Shown here: positions 3,406 to 61,178 of the stretch, piece after piece
Position numbering within the stretch: position 1 is the first letter of the stretch
How the letters are laid out: each line of letters begins with the position of its first letter
From: an uncultured Crocinitomix sp.
Lineage (GTDB): Bacteria; Bacteroidota; Bacteroidia; Flavobacteriales_D; Crocinitomicaceae
Reading direction: 5' to 3'
Assembly (NCBI GenBank): GCA_905478225.1
Contig: CAJQHR010000037.1
Coordinates: 1 to 64,000 of the forward strand
DNA length: 64,000 nucleotides
Translations under genes and position numbers: made by a program
Notes under the pieces: generated by a model
Told to the model about the DNA's origin: nothing
What the model saw: only the letters and a program-made list of their open reading frames with translations
Databases searched by the model: none

Positions 3406-4362
3406 GTGCTAGTAAATTTGTATAAAACAAAAATGCCCTTAGCTGTTTTTAGCTTCCCTATTTTAATGGGGCTATTTGCTTTGCCCATTTTCTATGTTGA
3501 AAACACAGAAGTTACTACCTTTTTTTCATGGCAACATGACCTGGTTTCTTTGGTTTCAAGTTCGCGTCTAATTAACTATTTTTCAACCGTTTTACTCCTG
3601 TATGTGAGCGCTATTGAACTCAATCGCCTCGTAAATGCTCATGGTTTTTACTCAAAAAACACATATCTGCCCGGATTAATTTATGCCTTGGCCTTGGCAA
3701 GTTTTGACCAAATGTTTTTCTCAACTTCCATAATTGCCTATGCTTTTTTAATTTATGCAATCGGTTTCCTTTTTCGAATCACTCGCCAAGATTCTGCGAG
3801 TGAAAGTATTTTTATGGCTGCTTTTTTTATTGGTTTAGCAACAGTCTTTAGCCCATTTTTAGTGCCTATTGTTCTTTTACCCTGGTTTAGTTTAATGGTA
3901 TTTAGATATTTTGTTTGGCGCGAATGGTTCATGCTCTTAATCGGGCTGAGCATTCCTTGGGCTTTTCATTATGGTATTTATTTTGCTGTTTCAGGCGAGT
4001 TTCAGGTTCTCACTGAAGGATTGGCAATTGTCAATCAGCCATTTGAATTTATATTGGAGGAACTCGTGCTGCTTGCCTTTTTAAGTTTATTAGTCATTTA
4101 TTCAGTTTGGAAATTCTTAGTGATTTTAAATACGCAATTACTCGTTTTTAAAAAACGTAGTCGACTTTTGTTTCATTTTATTTGGCTCATGTTAATTTCC
4201 ATTGCTCTAGGCTGGTACTTTCAAGATTTGTGGATCATTGCTATCGCTATTCCGTTTACAATAATTACGAGTGTTCAACTATTAAATGCCAATCAATCAC
4301 TTTATTCTAATCTCATGTTAACAGCTTGGATCGGATTAATAATTTGGAATTTAATAATGTGA
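3406..4362 (+). CDS. Polytopic membrane protein (DUF6427-like)
   Basis: A 318-residue integral membrane protein with about eight to ten hydrophobic spans, for example FPILMGLFALPIFYV, FSTVLLLYVSAIEL, FMAAFFIGLATVFSPF and FMLLIGLSIPWAF. It resembles, from memory, the Bacteroidota DUF6427 family, and the adjacent DUF6341-like gene supports this. Function is unknown. The GTG at 3406 gives the expected short N-terminus (MLVNLYKTKMPLAVF); an internal Met ten codons later is the alternative. It lies just upstream of purQ, but purQ has its own promoter element at 4405, so the two need not be cotranscribed. Confidence 0.75.
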   Translation: MLVNLYKTKMPLAVFSFPILMGLFALPIFYVENTEVTTFFSWQHDLVSLVSSSRLINYFSTVLLLYVSAIELNRLVNAHGFYSKNTYLPGLIYALALASFDQMFFSTSIIAYAFLIYAIGFLFRITRQDSASESIFMAAFFIGLATVFSPFLVPIVLLPWFSLMVFRYFVWREWFMLLIGLSIPWAFHYGIYFAVSGEFQVLTEGLAIVNQPFEFILEELVLLAFLSLLVIYSVWKFLVILNTQLLVFKKRSRLLFHFIWLMLISIALGWYFQDLWIIAIAIPFTIITSVQLLNANQSLYSNLMLTAWIGLIIWNLIM

Positions 4363-4404
4363 TTAGAATGTGAACAAATGTCCGTTAAATTATCCGAATA
4401 ATAT

Positions 4405-4412
4405 TAACTTTG
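4405..4412 (+). promoter_or_regulatory. -7 promoter element TAACTTTG upstream of purQ
   Basis: Exact TAnnTTTG match 22 bases before the purQ ATG at 4435. It falls in the gap after the preceding gene, so purQ is likely transcribed independently. Confidence 0.55.
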
Positions 4413-4434
4413 CAACGCATTTAAAAAGAAAGAA

Positions 4435-5121
4435 ATGAAATTTGGAGTAGTTACTTTTCCAGGGTCCAATTGCGATCAAGATATGGTAGACACGCTGGAG
4501 ACCAGTTTAGGTCAACAAGTTGAACGTTTATGGCATAAAGATCATGATTTAAAAGGAGTTGATTTTGTTGTATTACCAGGGGGATTCTCTTTTGGAGATT
4601 ACATGCGTTCTGGTGCCATTGCAAAATTTTCACCAATTATGAAAGAAGTAATCGCACATGGGCAACGTGGCGGTTATGTAATGGGAGTTTGTAATGGATT
4701 TCAAATTCTTTGTGAAACACCCTTGTTGGATGGGGCACTTTTACACAATAACAGTCAAAAATTTATTTGTAAAAACGTATTTCTTACACCAAAATCAAAG
4801 GATGCCGCTATTACAAAAGGATTAGAATCAAATAAAGCCTATAAAATTCCAATCGCACATGGCGAAGGTCGTTTCTATGCTCCAAAGGATGTAATGCAGT
4901 CGATTTATGACAATGATCAAATTTTGTTTAAATATTGTGATGAAGATGGAAATGTGACAGAAGGCGTTAATCCAAACGGTTCTTTAGACAACATTGCTGG
5001 AATTACAAATAAGGGCAAAAATATCTTCGGAATGATGCCTCATCCTGAACGTGCTTCAGATGCAAATTTGGGAAATACTGACGGAAAATTATTTTTCGAA
5101 TCCATTTTAGCCAATATTTAA
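4435..5121 (+). CDS. purQ: Phosphoribosylformylglycinamidine synthase, glutaminase subunit PurQ
   Basis: A 228-residue class I glutamine amidotransferase that supplies ammonia for the fourth step of purine synthesis (FGAR to FGAM). The catalytic triad is visible: nucleophile C86 in VMGVCNGFQIL, and H203 and E205 in MMPHPERAS. The oxyanion region LPGGFSFGDYMRSGAIA (48-64) is typical. The stand-alone form implies partner PurL is encoded elsewhere; it is not in this window. A strong terminator follows at 5143. Confidence 0.95.
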   Translation: MKFGVVTFPGSNCDQDMVDTLETSLGQQVERLWHKDHDLKGVDFVVLPGGFSFGDYMRSGAIAKFSPIMKEVIAHGQRGGYVMGVCNGFQILCETPLLDGALLHNNSQKFICKNVFLTPKSKDAAITKGLESNKAYKIPIAHGEGRFYAPKDVMQSIYDNDQILFKYCDEDGNVTEGVNPNGSLDNIAGITNKGKNIFGMMPHPERASDANLGNTDGKLFFESILANI

Positions 5122-5142
5122 AAAAAATATTTTAGAGCTGCC

Positions 5143-5177
5143 CCCTAACTGTTTTCAATGGTTAGGGACTTTTTTTT
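5143..5177 (+). terminator. Rho-independent terminator of purQ
   Basis: CCCTAAC (5143-5149) pairs with GTTAGGG (5161-5167), and a run of T follows up to 5177. Confidence 0.85.
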
Positions 5178-5297
5178 GCGCGCTTCGTTGGCATTTCGAC
5201 AAGCTCTATGCAGGGCATTGAAAATTGATCATTCTTCATTGAAATTTGATGATTCCACATTGAAAATCCGTATCTTACGAGAGAATAAAACCATATT

Positions 5298-7031
5298 ATG
5301 AAAACTTTCCTCATCCTCCTATTCGCAATAGCGACTTCATCTAGCTTTGCGCAAATCAACATTTTAAGTACAAATGCAACTGCCGATCAAGTAATGTTAG
5401 GTGATTTTGATCCTACCGATTATGCAGCCACTGACGTGATTACCGATCATGATGAAATTATAGCAGGAATTAATGAACAAATTAATTCTGACTCTTTAAA
5501 AGCCTATTTGTTTGAAATGGCAAGTTTTATGAATCGAAATACCGGTTCAGACACTGTTTCGGCAACAACAGGAATTGGAGCTGCACGACGTTGGGCACAT
5601 GATAAGTTTGAGGAATTTAGCGCAGCGAATGACAATCGATTAATCCCAAGTTATTTGCAATTCGATCAAGTGATTTGTAGTATGGGGCAACACCGAAATA
5701 TTTTCGCTGTCTTACCAGGCTCGAATGTTGAAAACCATAAAGTGATTATTATAGAAGCCCATTTCGATAGCAGATGCGCAAGTGGATGTGATATTGATTG
5801 TGAAGCACAAGGAATGGAAGACAATGGATCAGGATCAGCCTTGGTGCTTGAACTGGCAAGAGTTATGAGTCAATATACATTTGAAAACACGATTGTATTT
5901 ATGTTGACCATTGGTGAAGAACAAGGGCTTTATGGCGCAAATGCTTTTTCGCAATATGCGGTGGACAATGAAATGCCGATAAAAGCTGTGCTAAATAATG
6001 ACGTGATTGGCGGAGTAATCTGCGGTGAAACTTCCTCAGCGCCATCTTGCCCGGGAGAAGATGAAATTGACAGTACGCAAGTGCGCTTTTTTACAGAGGG
6101 AGGTTTTAATTCTCGGAATAAGCAATTGGCCCGTTTTATAAAGCTGCAATATCAGGAAGAGTTATTACCTGTTGTGGATGTACCAATGCAGTTAACAGTA
6201 ATGTCTGCTGAGGATAGAACGGGTAGAGGTGGCGATCATATTCCGTTTAGACAGGATGGATTTACGGCCATGCGCTTTACGTCTGCTCACGAACACGGTG
6301 ACGCAGGAGTGGGTGGTGACTATCACGATCGTCAGCATACTTCTGAAGACATTTTAGGAGTTGACACGGATGGTGACATGGAATTGGATAGCTTTTTTGT
6401 AGACTTCAATTATCTGGGTCGTAACGCCGTGATTAATGGTGTTGGGGCGGCAATGATTGCAAATGGACCTAAGCCTTGTGACTTTTTAATTGAAACGTTT
6501 GAAGGGCCTGGTATTGTTGTTCGAATTACTGGGGAGACGGGTTATGATAAATACCGTGTAGGACTGCGTACTGAAACCAATGATTGGGATTCCGTTTATG
6601 TGCTGGAAGGATTTTTGGACACTATTTATCCCCCAACTTCTGATAATTATATTATAAGTGTAGCCTCTGTTGATGAATATGATATTGAGAGTTTATTCTC
6701 ATCCGAAATTGCCATTACAAATGGTGAAATTTCCGTTAAAGAGCATCAAAAACCAAGTAAAGATTTTGAGCTCATGCAGAATAGACCAAATCCGTTTGAT
6801 GAAGCAACAATAATTGGAGTAAGAGTCAATCAATCTCAAAATGTAAAGGAAGCTTTTATTTCCATTCGTGATATGCAAAGAAAAGAGATTGAACGTTTAC
6901 CGATAGATTTGTCAAGTGAAGTCAATGAGGTGCTCTATCATCACGGCTATGGCAAGGTGGGCACTTTTGCATATACTTTGGTTGTAGATGGACAGGATAA
7001 AGGAACCAAGATGATGGTTTTTGCCAATTAA
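5298..7031 (+). CDS. Secreted M28 family zinc aminopeptidase with T9SS sorting domain
   Basis: A 577-residue exported metallopeptidase. Signal peptide 1-18 (MKTFLILLFAIATSSSFA). The M28 catalytic domain spans about 125-400 with the expected zinc and catalytic residues: H155 (AHFDSR), D175 (EDNGSGS), E207/E208 (GEEQG), D235 (NNDVIG) and H314 (GGDHIPF). A fibronectin-type-III-like stretch follows (about 400-480), and residues about 485-577 form a type A T9SS sorting domain (MQNRPNPFDEATII, GTFAYTLVVDG). It is therefore predicted to be carried across the outer membrane and released or anchored at the surface. Flanked by terminators and not obviously in an operon. Confidence 0.9.
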   Translation: MKTFLILLFAIATSSSFAQINILSTNATADQVMLGDFDPTDYAATDVITDHDEIIAGINEQINSDSLKAYLFEMASFMNRNTGSDTVSATTGIGAARRWAHDKFEEFSAANDNRLIPSYLQFDQVICSMGQHRNIFAVLPGSNVENHKVIIIEAHFDSRCASGCDIDCEAQGMEDNGSGSALVLELARVMSQYTFENTIVFMLTIGEEQGLYGANAFSQYAVDNEMPIKAVLNNDVIGGVICGETSSAPSCPGEDEIDSTQVRFFTEGGFNSRNKQLARFIKLQYQEELLPVVDVPMQLTVMSAEDRTGRGGDHIPFRQDGFTAMRFTSAHEHGDAGVGGDYHDRQHTSEDILGVDTDGDMELDSFFVDFNYLGRNAVINGVGAAMIANGPKPCDFLIETFEGPGIVVRITGETGYDKYRVGLRTETNDWDSVYVLEGFLDTIYPPTSDNYIISVASVDEYDIESLFSSEIAITNGEISVKEHQKPSKDFELMQNRPNPFDEATIIGVRVNQSQNVKEAFISIRDMQRKEIERLPIDLSSEVNEVLYHHGYGKVGTFAYTLVVDGQDKGTKMMVFAN

Positions 7032-7090
7032 GGACATTTTTTATCTACTAAGCAATTTAAGATATTTTATCTTCATGCTTTTGTTAGCCT

Positions 7091-7891
7091 ATGAAAGTTA
7101 TTCTTGTAGTTGTCATTGTCCTTATCCTGATGTTTTGGTTATGGCGCGATAGCGTTTTAAAGAAGGTTGACATTCCTGCCGAATGGCATGATTTGTTAGA
7201 AGAGCATGTGCGCTTTTATCAATTATTGAATGATGCCGAAAAACTAGTTTTTCAAGATCAAATGGCGGTGTTTTTATATGAGGTTAATATAGAAGCTGTA
7301 CATTTCGAATTAGAGGAAATTGACAGGGTTTTTGTTGCGGCAAGCGCTATTGTACCGATTTTTCGATTTAGAAATTGGCGTTATAAGACGATTAATGGTG
7401 TGATTATTTTTCCGAACGATTTTAACGACGATTTGGGTTTTGGTAGTGATGCGAAAGATAAATGGATTGGAGGAAGAGTGAATTATGGACCGAAAGGTTC
7501 ACGCATGATTTTATCACGTAAGTCTTTACATCATGGCTTTAAAAATAAAACGGATAAAGTCAATACTGGTATACATGAGTTTGTTCATATATTGGATATA
7601 GCTGATGGGAAAATGGATGGTATTCCGGAGAATTTTGTAGGTCAAGAATACATTATTCCTTGGTTAAATTTAATGTATGAAGGCATGGAAGCCATTAATA
7701 ATGATAAATCTGATTATCATGGATCTAATCTAAAGGACAGAACCGATATTCGTGCTTACGGTGGAACAAAACAGGTTGAATTCTTTACAGTCGCTTCTGA
7801 ATATTTTTTCGAACGTCCTAAGTTGCTACGGCGCAAGCATCCTGAGCTCTATGAAATGTTAGAGCGTTGTTATAATCCGGATAAGGTTTGA
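7091..7891 (+). CDS. Membrane-anchored zinc peptidase, MtfA family
   Basis: A 266-residue protein with an N-terminal membrane anchor (about 3-19, VILVVVIVLILMFWLW) and an MtfA (Mlc titration factor A)/zincin domain. The HExxH signature is HEFVH at 162-166 and the downstream glutamate motif is VEFFTVASEYFFERP (229-243). The region WRDSVLKK to FVAASAIVPIF matches MtfA-like proteins generally. In Escherichia coli MtfA binds the repressor Mlc and is an aminopeptidase; whether the regulatory role is conserved in Bacteroidota is unknown. Followed by a strong terminator at 7941. Confidence 0.85.
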   Translation: MKVILVVVIVLILMFWLWRDSVLKKVDIPAEWHDLLEEHVRFYQLLNDAEKLVFQDQMAVFLYEVNIEAVHFELEEIDRVFVAASAIVPIFRFRNWRYKTINGVIIFPNDFNDDLGFGSDAKDKWIGGRVNYGPKGSRMILSRKSLHHGFKNKTDKVNTGIHEFVHILDIADGKMDGIPENFVGQEYIIPWLNLMYEGMEAINNDKSDYHGSNLKDRTDIRAYGGTKQVEFFTVASEYFFERPKLLRRKHPELYEMLERCYNPDKV

Positions 7892-58312: not shown

Positions 58313-58375
58313 ATTTGATCGCGACTAAAGAATTAGTTAACGATAGATAAATTGTCCTTACATAAGCGTGATAAA

Positions 58376-58807
58376 ATGGGAGTGAAAAACATATTTGTTG
58401 TTGAAGGTGACGAATTCTTTGCTGAAGCATTTATCGAAAAAATGAAAAGAATGGGGGATTTTGAAATTCACTATTTTAATACGGTAGAAAGAGCGCTTGG
58501 CGAAGTGACCAAAATTAGACCAGAGATTATTTCCATGGATCATATTTTGCACGGAGTAAAAGGAGTGGAAGCAATACCGCTCTTGAAGGAAATTCATGAA
58601 AGTGCAGAAATTGTGATTGTTTCAAACCAAATATTACCTGAAGTATTAGGGCAAGCGCTTGATTCTGGAGCATCTAAATACTTCGTGAAAGATCTTCTAT
58701 TAACGAATGCAACGAAAGATTTTATTGAAGAAATGCAAAACAAAGCATCTAAAAATGAGGGCTTTTGGTCTAATTTCTTAAAGTTTTTTCACAAAAAAAC
58801 AGAATAA
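58376..58807 (+). CDS. Single-domain response regulator (CheY-like)
   Basis: A 143-residue receiver protein. The ATG at 58376 is preferred to the TTG at 58352. Receiver features: D4-type acid pair E10/D12 (FVVEGDEF), phosphoacceptor D55 (IISMDHILHG), T/S at 83 (VIVSNQ) and K105 (YFVKD). A C-terminal tail (NEGFWSNFLKFFHKKTE) extends past the domain. No output domain; it would act by binding a partner. No kinase nearby. Confidence 0.85.
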   Translation: MGVKNIFVVEGDEFFAEAFIEKMKRMGDFEIHYFNTVERALGEVTKIRPEIISMDHILHGVKGVEAIPLLKEIHESAEIVIVSNQILPEVLGQALDSGASKYFVKDLLLTNATKDFIEEMQNKASKNEGFWSNFLKFFHKKTE

Positions 58808-59457: not shown

Positions 59458-59489
59458 AATCCTTTCGGTTTGCCGAGGGGATTTTTTTA
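59458..59489. terminator. Rho-independent terminator
   Basis: AATCCTTTCGG and CCGAGGGGATT form a hairpin around TTTG, followed by a T run to 59489. It lies between the lipocalin-like gene and the convergent cyclase gene. Confidence 0.8.
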
Positions 59490-61178
59490 TGCTTGAATTT
59501 TGGTGAGCTCGGCTTTTAGTTCTGCCAGTCGTTTTATTTTGCCAGGCGCCCGAAGGTTTTTAGCCGTAGTCGTGTAATATTTATGATAATCCTCTAAATA
59601 TTGGATTTGCGCTTGAATTCTTTGTAAAGGTGTGAAATTAACACCGTAAAGTGCCATTTCATCAAAAAGCTTAGCCGCCGTAACGTGATAGTCAGCACGA
59701 CCTAAATAATCCAGATCAGCATCACACATCACCTTTTCCATTAAATCAGTTGGAACCTCACCGTGGCCCGTGGCCATTATTATTTTTTCAATCGATTTTA
59801 AGTCGGCATCTTGATAGCCAAAACGTTGACCATAATGGTAAAGCAATTCTATACCTAACACCTCGTTATCATCATATCTAAATAAGAAGCCACTATCATG
59901 AAAAAGTGCTGCTGTCCGTACTAAAAATAAATCATGTTTGTTTAACCCTTCTAATTCCCCATATTTTACCACGGCTTCTTCTACCATTTCCGTGTGTCTA
60001 TAGGAGTGATAGAGTAAATCTTCGCTGAGTTCTGCTTTTAGTTTGGTTAAAATAAAACTGCGCAACCCACTAAAATCGGCAAGTGGAAGCCCAGTTGCTT
60101 TTCGCAATTCAATATTTGGAATTCGGCCTTCGCTATCTAGCGAATAATTGGGTTTAATACCTTCTAAATAAAACATGCTAATTTCACCACCATTTTTTAT
60201 GGTAATATTTCCGCGTGGACTCAATTCAAAATAATGGGAAATTGTTGCCGCGAAATTTCCAGAAACGTTAATGTTACCAGCTTTAGAGTTTTGTTCACAA
60301 CGTGCGGCAATATTTACGGTATCACCCCAAACATCAAAGCTGAATTTGTGCTTTCCTACCACACCCGCTACTAAATCGCCCGTATGAATACCAATCCGGA
60401 TTTCCCAATATTCGTTTTGCCAAGCTTTTAATGTTTCCATATCATTCAGCATGAAGTTTCGAATTTCATTTGCAGCCAAAGCCATTCTAATGGCTGGGTA
60501 AGGATCTTTTTCGGTAACTCCACCCACGGCCATATAAGCATCTCCTATGGTTTTTATTTTTTCAAGCTTGTATTTCAAAATAATCTCATCAAAAACGCTG
60601 AAATAAAAATCGAGCTTTTTAACCAAATCATGTGGATCGCTATTTTTTGTGAGTTGTGTGAAATTGACAAAATCAGTAAACATTACACTGCAATTCTGTC
60701 GCTTTTTCGGACTTGATTTACCGTAAACTTTAAATTCATTTAACGTTTGTGAAGGTAAAATACTCTCCAATAAATGGCTAACTCTTTTATGTCTAAAAAA
60801 CAGTTTTTTATATACCGCCATTTTTGCCTTAACCAAATTGGGTAAAAATGGTTTAGACAAATAGTCCATGGCACCCCGTTTTGTGCCATCCACTGAGGAA
60901 TGTAGTTTTTCTAGATTAGATGAGGTGATTATGATTGTGGCATTTTCAACCCCGTTTATTTCATGAATTTTTTTCAGAAACAATTTGGTATTAATGTCTG
61001 GTAAATCTAAACTACAAAAAATTAAAGCGAATTTTTTTTTATGCAATAAATTCAATGCATCAACACTATTGCTAAATGTGAAAATATTGTGACCTGGACT
61101 TCGGAGTATGTCGAGAAGAGAAGATTGATCTTCCTCATTATTTTCAACAACTAGAATATTAAGAATTCGATCGAACAT
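59487..61178 (-). CDS. Receiver-adenylate cyclase-HD domain fusion protein
   Basis: A 563-residue cytoplasmic protein. Residues 1-120 form a receiver-type domain, but the usual phosphoacceptor Asp is S56 (FCSLDLPD), although K109 (SKPF) is kept. Residues about 160-340 are a class III nucleotidyl cyclase with every expected residue: metal Asp D169 (MFTDF) and D213 (IGDAYMAVGG), adenine-selecting K209 (EKIKT) and D282 (SFDVWG), transition-state N289 and R293 (TVNIAAR). The Lys/Asp pair predicts adenylate rather than guanylate cyclase. Residues about 385-500 are an HD phosphohydrolase-like domain (H391/H395, HD at 427-428, H472, D486/D488). It may make cAMP and hydrolyse some nucleotide. Regulated partner unknown; single gene on its strand. 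Confidence 0.85.
   Translation of the reverse strand: MFDRILNILVVENNEEDQSSLLDILRSPGHNIFTFSNSVDALNLLHKKKFALIFCSLDLPDINTKLFLKKIHEINGVENATIIITSSNLEKLHSSVDGTKRGAMDYLSKPFLPNLVKAKMAVYKKLFFRHKRVSHLLESILPSQTLNEFKVYGKSSPKKRQNCSVMFTDFVNFTQLTKNSDPHDLVKKLDFYFSVFDEIILKYKLEKIKTIGDAYMAVGGVTEKDPYPAIRMALAANEIRNFMLNDMETLKAWQNEYWEIRIGIHTGDLVAGVVGKHKFSFDVWGDTVNIAARCEQNSKAGNINVSGNFAATISHYFELSPRGNITIKNGGEISMFYLEGIKPNYSLDSEGRIPNIELRKATGLPLADFSGLRSFILTKLKAELSEDLLYHSYRHTEMVEEAVVKYGELEGLNKHDLFLVRTAALFHDSGFLFRYDDNEVLGIELLYHYGQRFGYQDADLKSIEKIIMATGHGEVPTDLMEKVMCDADLDYLGRADYHVTAAKLFDEMALYGVNFTPLQRIQAQIQYLEDYHKYYTTTAKNLRAPGKIKRLAELKAELTKIQA

Follow-up and report, generated by a model that had tools for sequence, protein, structure and literature searches.

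A degenerate receiver, a class III cyclase and an HD domain on a single chain in an uncultured Crocinitomix

In the CAPE protein (COMBINED AC with PDE) of Marchantia, an adenylyl cyclase and a phosphodiesterase are joined and both are active in vitro (PMC5159850). CAPE occurs in other streptophytes too (PMC8115329). RelA/SpoT homologues offer a second comparison, as they carry a synthetase and a hydrolase for one nucleotide signal on each chain (PMC3153485). Receivers without the phosphoacceptor aspartate have also been described. They keep the receiver fold with the acceptor replaced, commonly by Asn or Ser among other residues (PMC4395418, PMC12632262). In an earlier survey of Asp-less receivers, Asn accounts for 16 and Ser for 15 percent of the replacements, and the reversion of Asn to Asp has been reported in a receiver (PMC4395418). 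For many pseudo-receivers dimerisation or partner binding is described, and the abstract of a 2025 perspective terms their mechanisms a mystery (PMC12632262). Among the HD proteins, YpgQ is a nucleotide pyrophosphohydrolase with a one-metal H...HD...D motif (PMC8177086), and a YpgQ-like HD protein from plants hydrolyses cAMP in vitro (PMC8431786).

Here we analyse a stretch of 64,000 nucleotides (the window) from an uncultured Crocinitomix sp., in which a single gene encodes a receiver, a class III cyclase and an HD domain (REC-AC-HD), Table 1. According to the open reading frame list and the translation, the gene starts with ATG. The fusion of the three domains had been proposed in the initial annotation, and Pfam finds all of them in the 563-aa protein: Response_reg (PF00072) at residues 8-117 (E 3.6e-13), Guanylate_cyc (PF00211) at residues 158-340 (E 1.3e-45, above the cut-off) and HD (PF01966) at residues 393-488 (E 1.3e-4, 22.7 bits against a cut-off of 22). 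All three domains exceed chance, the HD domain narrowly if the Pfam test is taken alone.

Table 1. Location of the REC-AC-HD gene and its parts in the window.
Feature	Position	Strand	Basis or remark
Whole gene: REC, linker helix, class III cyclase, HD	59487..61178	-	563 aa ORF, Pfam
Pseudo-receiver, residues 6-118; acceptor slot S56, acid pair E12-N13, K109 retained	60825..61163	-	Pfam, alignment, model
S56 codon AGT	61011..61013	-	single transition away from Asn codon AAT
Coupling region, residues 119-157	60708..60824	-	AlphaFold model, alignment identity
Class III cyclase domain, residues 158-341	60156..60707	-	Pfam, alignment
HD domain, residues 368-555	59514..60077	-	Pfam, alignment, model

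As in CAPE, a class III adenylyl cyclase shares a single chain with what would be a cyclic-nucleotide phosphodiesterase domain, if the activity predicted for the HD domain is right. However, CAPE has its class I phosphodiesterase first and the cyclase last, whereas here the order is REC-AC-HD, with the HD domain at the C-terminus and no PDEase_I match. The protein works like CAPE and is not a member, since domain order, receiver and HD family differ. The comparison with RelA/SpoT is also one of a similar way of working; the hydrolase of those proteins is, we assume, an HD domain, while their signal and synthetase fold presumably differ from those of the window protein.

The host genome consists of 3.5 Mb in 75 contigs. 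Among named relatives, the nearest found were Crocinitomix sp. GLR79, at 79 percent identity, and Crocinitomix catalasitica, at 58 percent. A match that begins within the receiver occurs in at least 66 of 299 genomes of the order, its own genome counted (two of them interrupted or cut short), so the REC-AC-HD protein is not unique to the host. The main alignment contains 68 distinct homologues. L002 (the same as L003), L005 and L007 (identical to L033 and L034) and G242, whose match begins at residue 94, were omitted from it. The incomplete rows L037, L103 and L110 were kept among the 68 and excluded from the identity calculation (65 rows), and the structure alignment used 63 of the 68 rows (without L024, L037, L103, L108 and L110). 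The mean pairwise identity is 0.40 for the receiver, 0.60 for both the linker and the cyclase, and 0.53 for the HD domain. An AlphaFold model of the whole protein has a mean pLDDT of 89.3. According to this model, alpha-5 of the receiver extends as a single helix over residues 113-140 and is followed by a helix at 143-152. The long helix is a plausible path from the receiver to the cyclase.

The genes upstream on the same strand, 137 bp away, encode a TPR-SH3 protein and a BatD-like one. Within the short flanks covered, mostly of 1.5 kb, they do not form a conserved operon with the gene, as they are matched at 4 of 68 loci. On the plus strand, at 58352-58807, there is a stand-alone receiver of 151 aa with a TTG start (PF00072, E 9.1e-10). 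It has the acceptor Asp, while by eye Glu-Gly replaces the acid pair. The neighbouring genes were rejected as candidate partners, the stand-alone receiver being matched in one of 68 loci (its own) and the Bat genes in four, with flanks mostly of 1.5 kb.

In the receiver, the model puts beta-3 at residues 52-56 and the ends of beta-1, beta-4 and beta-5 at 11, 86 and 108. From these strand ends, E12-N13, S56, T85/S86 and K109 fall in the canonical slots, with S56 in that of the phosphoacceptor. The acid pair after beta-1 is thus E12-N13 and not Asp-Asp; K109, the Lys after beta-5, and T85/S86 are retained. Of what marks a phosphorylatable receiver, the acceptor Asp and the acid pair are absent and the Lys is present, and the domain has the features of a pseudo-receiver, a PF00072 match with key residues lost (S56, N13).

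The initial annotation had noted Ser at the phosphoacceptor position and had read the domain as a pseudo-receiver. Ser does occupy the slot in the window protein, but it is not a trait of the family, as the acceptor column of the 68 homologues contains Asn in 46 rows, Asp in 16, Ser in five and Pro in one. The pseudo-receiver reading is supported at the level of the family, where column 109 is Lys in 24 of 68 rows. Hydrophobic residues at 109 also occur among the relatives, as does the Pro at 56. All five catalytic residues of the receiver are retained in 5 of 68 homologues, L106 among them, and for this reason some relatives may still be phosphorylated. No association was seen between D56 and the other four residues (5/16 vs 11/52, p 0.50). 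D105 is found in 68 of 68 rows and P110 in 66. As rows were selected for possessing a receiver, its retention does not count as a finding. Judged from the alignment, most of the homologue group have a degenerate receiver, usually with Asn as the substitute.

A conserved Asp at position 58 or 61 had been named as a possible alternative acceptor, and the assignment of S56 to the slot survives this check. D61 was rejected, as it is Asp in two of 68 rows and lies in the loop after beta-3 in the model. D58 is Asp or Glu in 52 of 68, yet it also comes after beta-3 in the model and is not preferred.

The acceptor has changed often. On a tree made from the cyclase and HD columns only, 12 changes are needed for the acceptor state and nine for Asp against not-Asp, and within one genus the rows L024, L029, L030 and L081 differ from L015, L027, L074 and L076 by Asp and Asn. 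With a midpoint root, for which the tool flagged long branches on the side of L037 and L106-L108, these four rows form the branch opposite all others. They have the Asp and the Asp-Asp pair in four of four and the Lys in two of four. As this branch keeps these residues, a phosphorylatable ancestor is likely, and from the sequences the pseudo-receiver probably descends from a phosphorylatable receiver. Codons were read for 30 of the 68 rows; the five Ser rows use AGT twice, AGC twice and TCT once. By analogy with other pseudo-receivers, we read the domain as kept for its fold, most likely for dimerisation or partner binding. The main text of the survey of Asp-less receivers contains neither "HD domain" nor "cyclase" (PMC4395418), whereas in the group described here the acceptor varies between Asn, Asp, Ser and Pro among homologues.

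In the cyclase, D169, K209, D213, D282, N289 and R293 are each found in 68 of 68 rows. The numbering of these residues and of S56 in the initial annotation is correct, and its description of the cyclase as intact is supported across the family. We take D169 and D213 to be metal ligands, K209 and D282 to recognise adenine, and N289 and R293 to act on the transition state. A Lys/Asp pair, as opposed to Glu/Cys, is presumably the adenine-specifying one, and K209 with D282 fits this. The domain has the PF00211 match, the metal Asp pair, the transition-state Asn/Arg and the Lys/Asp pair of a class III cyclase. For the whole model, Foldseek gives 5o5l, the soluble domain of a bacterial adenylyl cyclase, as its best match; the best 50 matches in this search are all cyclases, so it carries no information on the receiver. 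Conservation thus supports an intact cyclase in the whole homologue group, which would form cAMP.

In the HD domain, H391, H395, H427, D428, D486, D488, D490, Q524 and H532 are invariant in every row that extends far enough to include them (65 to 67 of 68). The PF01966 match and the H...HD...D motif place the domain in the HD superfamily, and 46 of 48 members of its family match PF01966 at E up to 10. The phosphohydrolase motifs noted in the initial annotation are borne out, with no sign of an HD domain incapable of binding metal.

The HD model has a pLDDT of 96.9, and the two structural searches rank its relatives differently. Foldseek places YpgQ (with ADP) on top at E 1e-4, with phosphodiesterases at E 0.01-0.03. 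In the second structural aligner, the best 50 entries are all class I phosphodiesterases (Z 17.3-18.4, rmsd 2.5-3.1 over 190-195 of 200 residues), and the fold is shared over the whole domain with PDE10A 4dff (Z 18.4, rmsd 2.7 over 193 of 200 residues); helical bundles score high in Z, the pool is rich in phosphodiesterase entries, and a shared fold shows no function. The nearest solved sequences are YedJ (profile E 1.7e-6), 2pq7, 3djb and YpgQ (0.0015), with PDE5 at 0.04. The Foldseek identity to the YpgQ/YedJ group is just 16-24 percent. With the relative L047, PRK10119 (NCBIfam) reaches just 20.3 bits of 286; it is not listed for the window HD domain.

PDEase_I (PF00233) is not matched by the window HD domain and is matched by one of 48 HD-family members, at 6.9e-4. 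It is above its cut-off in none of 148 Bacteroidota genomes, and the sole weak match in these genomes is in an HD-family gene whose 393-aa product contains a YHNxxH motif. Compared with HDxxH, which we take to be the class I motif, the second histidine is missing from the window HD domain. The HD fold and the H...HD...D metal motif are shared with the YpgQ/YedJ-type hydrolases, which include the plant proteins ATCN-PDE1 and BDPDE1 (PMC8431786). The motif published for plant phosphodiesterases fits YHSYR...HD in the window protein (PMC8431786). It was not used, because the Arg is lost in relatives (consensus YHDxxHT) and the downstream Rx3[YFW] part misfits by eye.

The HD family is also found as stand-alone proteins of about 195 aa, and in Bacteroidota it is linked to cyclases. 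Class III cyclases are present in 111 of 198 sampled genomes: in 61 of 78 with an HD-family match and in 50 of 120 without (p 4.5e-7, shared ancestry uncorrected). With a close HD match (E up to 1e-40) the cyclase is present in 15 of 15 genomes, compared with 96 of the 183 others (p 1.6e-4, also uncorrected for shared ancestry). When the three fused cases are removed, this becomes 12 of 12 (p 6.6e-4 against the same 96/183, with shared ancestry again uncorrected). Within the class, 15 of 15 genomes with a close HD match have a cyclase versus 15 of 34. A PF00211 cyclase is absent from 17 of the 78 HD-family genomes.

Some unfused HD genes also lie near a cyclase gene. We counted 25 such HD genes (E < 1e-15) across 17 genomes, each with a top-ranking HD place outside any cyclase fusion; the fused cases (G446, G008, G000) were excluded. 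A PF00211 cyclase lies within 500 bp of four of these genes, within 6 kb of nine and within 12 kb of 13, where random placement predicts 0.04, 0.26 and 0.49. The other 16 have no cyclase within 6 kb. At L144 the HD gene follows two cyclase genes after about 40 bp, and at L150 an HD-YitT gene comes about 10 bp after a receiver gene and a REC-AC gene. On L047 and L054, two contigs found via the cyclase, the HD gene is adjacent and divergent.

HD-cyclase fusions occur with GAF-AC, with Reg_prop-Y_Y_Y-AC and with a membrane-like helix plus AC. An example of the last type, the 528-aa AC-HD protein L117, was considered as a case of receiver loss and rejected, as by eye it starts with the membrane-like helix and a coiled coil and has no receiver remnant. 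Other members are fused to TPR, YitT-DUF2179 or the Pycsar effector domain PycTM. Two proteins combine HD with the YitT membrane domain and DUF2179 (L121:604-2058, L122:1501-2958), and a cyclase is 41 bp and 1.9 kb off, respectively, as measured between domain hits. Pfam identifies HD-PycTM fusions of about 410 aa at L130:1435-2670 and L134:1474-2712, and L164:592-1773 resembles them by eye. There is no cyclase within about 6 kb of HD-PycTM in L160 (the L130 locus) or L163. Neither a receiver-cyclase-HD nor an HD-PycTM protein was found in the titles and abstract openings of the open-access literature searched.

A cluster in which a REC-AC gene comes after a lone receiver, close to an HD gene, recurs at L146, L150, L153 and L157. 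These unfused REC-AC proteins of Bacteroidota consist of a receiver and a class III cyclase, like the first two domains of the window protein, and an HD-family gene is within 6 kb. Unlike the receiver of the window protein, both the lone receiver and that of the REC-AC protein are canonical in the four that were read.

The host genome has two class III cyclases, both fused to the HD family, and the HD query has no further match there. The second cyclase (L109, G000:C44:14000-23000; ORF 3553-7431 on the minus strand, 1293 aa) combines Reg_prop repeats (8 stretches) and Y_Y_Y with a class III cyclase and an HD domain of the same family, with no receiver by Pfam. The profiles PDEase_I, PDEase_II and the CpdA equivalog have no match in the host genome, and PF01966 is found in seven places in total. 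Two cNMP-binding proteins were found. By eye, neither of them shows what we take to be the cAMP-pocket signature of the cAMP-type CRP, and no cAMP effector is evident, which speaks against the cAMP reading. One of the two loci read, L166:399-1394 (G000:C46), encodes 331 aa with a cNMP-binding domain (PF00027); by eye its N-terminus is cysteine-rich and membrane-like, and its end resembles a helix-turn-helix.

Taken as a whole, we put at an even chance that the protein is a one-chain cAMP synthetase and hydrolase with a phosphorylation-independent pseudo-receiver. Two chains would pair through the receiver and the continuous alpha-5/linker helix, and pairing would join two cyclase domains that form cAMP from ATP. 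The C-terminal metal-dependent HD hydrolase would then convert cAMP to AMP. Free of Asp phosphorylation, the receiver would either be a constitutive dimer or sense a partner or ligand, and in this way may set the balance between cAMP synthesis and breakdown; the domain arrangement suggests such a control of either enzyme. Because of the linkage of the HD family to cyclases, cAMP is the likeliest HD substrate. Genome linkage and fold similarity together point to it with a confidence close to one half. A broader proposal, which we consider tentative and a little short of evenly balanced, is that the Bacteroidota HD family is an undescribed type of cAMP phosphodiesterase with the class I fold, which has spread with class III cyclases. 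REC-AC-HD would be its self-contained form, making and removing cAMP, whose receiver gave up phosphorylation while those of the unfused REC-AC neighbours did not.

As the main rival reading, the HD domain could instead be a YpgQ/YedJ-like nucleotide pyrophosphohydrolase or phosphatase that acts on ATP, another (d)NTP or a by-product, for example limiting the substrate of the cyclase, and not on cAMP. We regard this as rather unlikely, even though YedJ, 2pq7, 3djb and YpgQ are the closest solved sequences, Foldseek ranks YpgQ with its ADP on top and the one-metal motif of YpgQ fits (PMC8177086). The linkage of HD genes to cyclases in the genomes speaks against it, as does the second aligner, whose best 50 entries include no YpgQ. 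Kinship to YpgQ is moreover compatible with cAMP, given that the YpgQ-like plant protein hydrolyses it (PMC8431786). It is also conceivable that the domain serves as a nucleotide-binding, allosteric regulator of the cyclase, with hydrolysis slow or irrelevant. Fusion and adjacency to the cyclase are equally expected in that case, and the HD-PycTM and HD-YitT fusions resemble receptor-type layouts; however, pure binding would not need metal residues that are invariant in all rows reaching them, and we think the idea improbable.

For the receiver, the alternative to a phosphorylation-independent domain is that it is still phospho-switched, through S56 by a Ser kinase, through D58 in the next loop, or in relatives through Asn deamidated to Asp. 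K109 and the Thr/Ser remain in the window protein, position 58 is acidic in 52 of 68 rows, the five residues are complete in five, and a reversion from Asn to Asp is on record (PMC4395418). Against this, the acid pair of the window protein is eroded, relatives carry Pro at 56 or hydrophobic residues at 109, and D56 does not track the remaining residues of the site. A phospho-switch is in our view the least probable of these alternatives, with only a slim chance of being right.

The protein is made of known parts in an uncommon order, and its HD domain may act as a cAMP phosphodiesterase so far unrecognised in Bacteroidota. A single receiver lineage with Asp, Asn or Ser in the acceptor slot and a measurable enzyme output provides a natural series for the study of pseudo-receivers that work without phosphate. 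If the HD family removes cAMP, it would be a candidate off-switch that lends itself to assay in Bacteroidota, where PDEase_I is above its cut-off in none of 148 sampled genomes.
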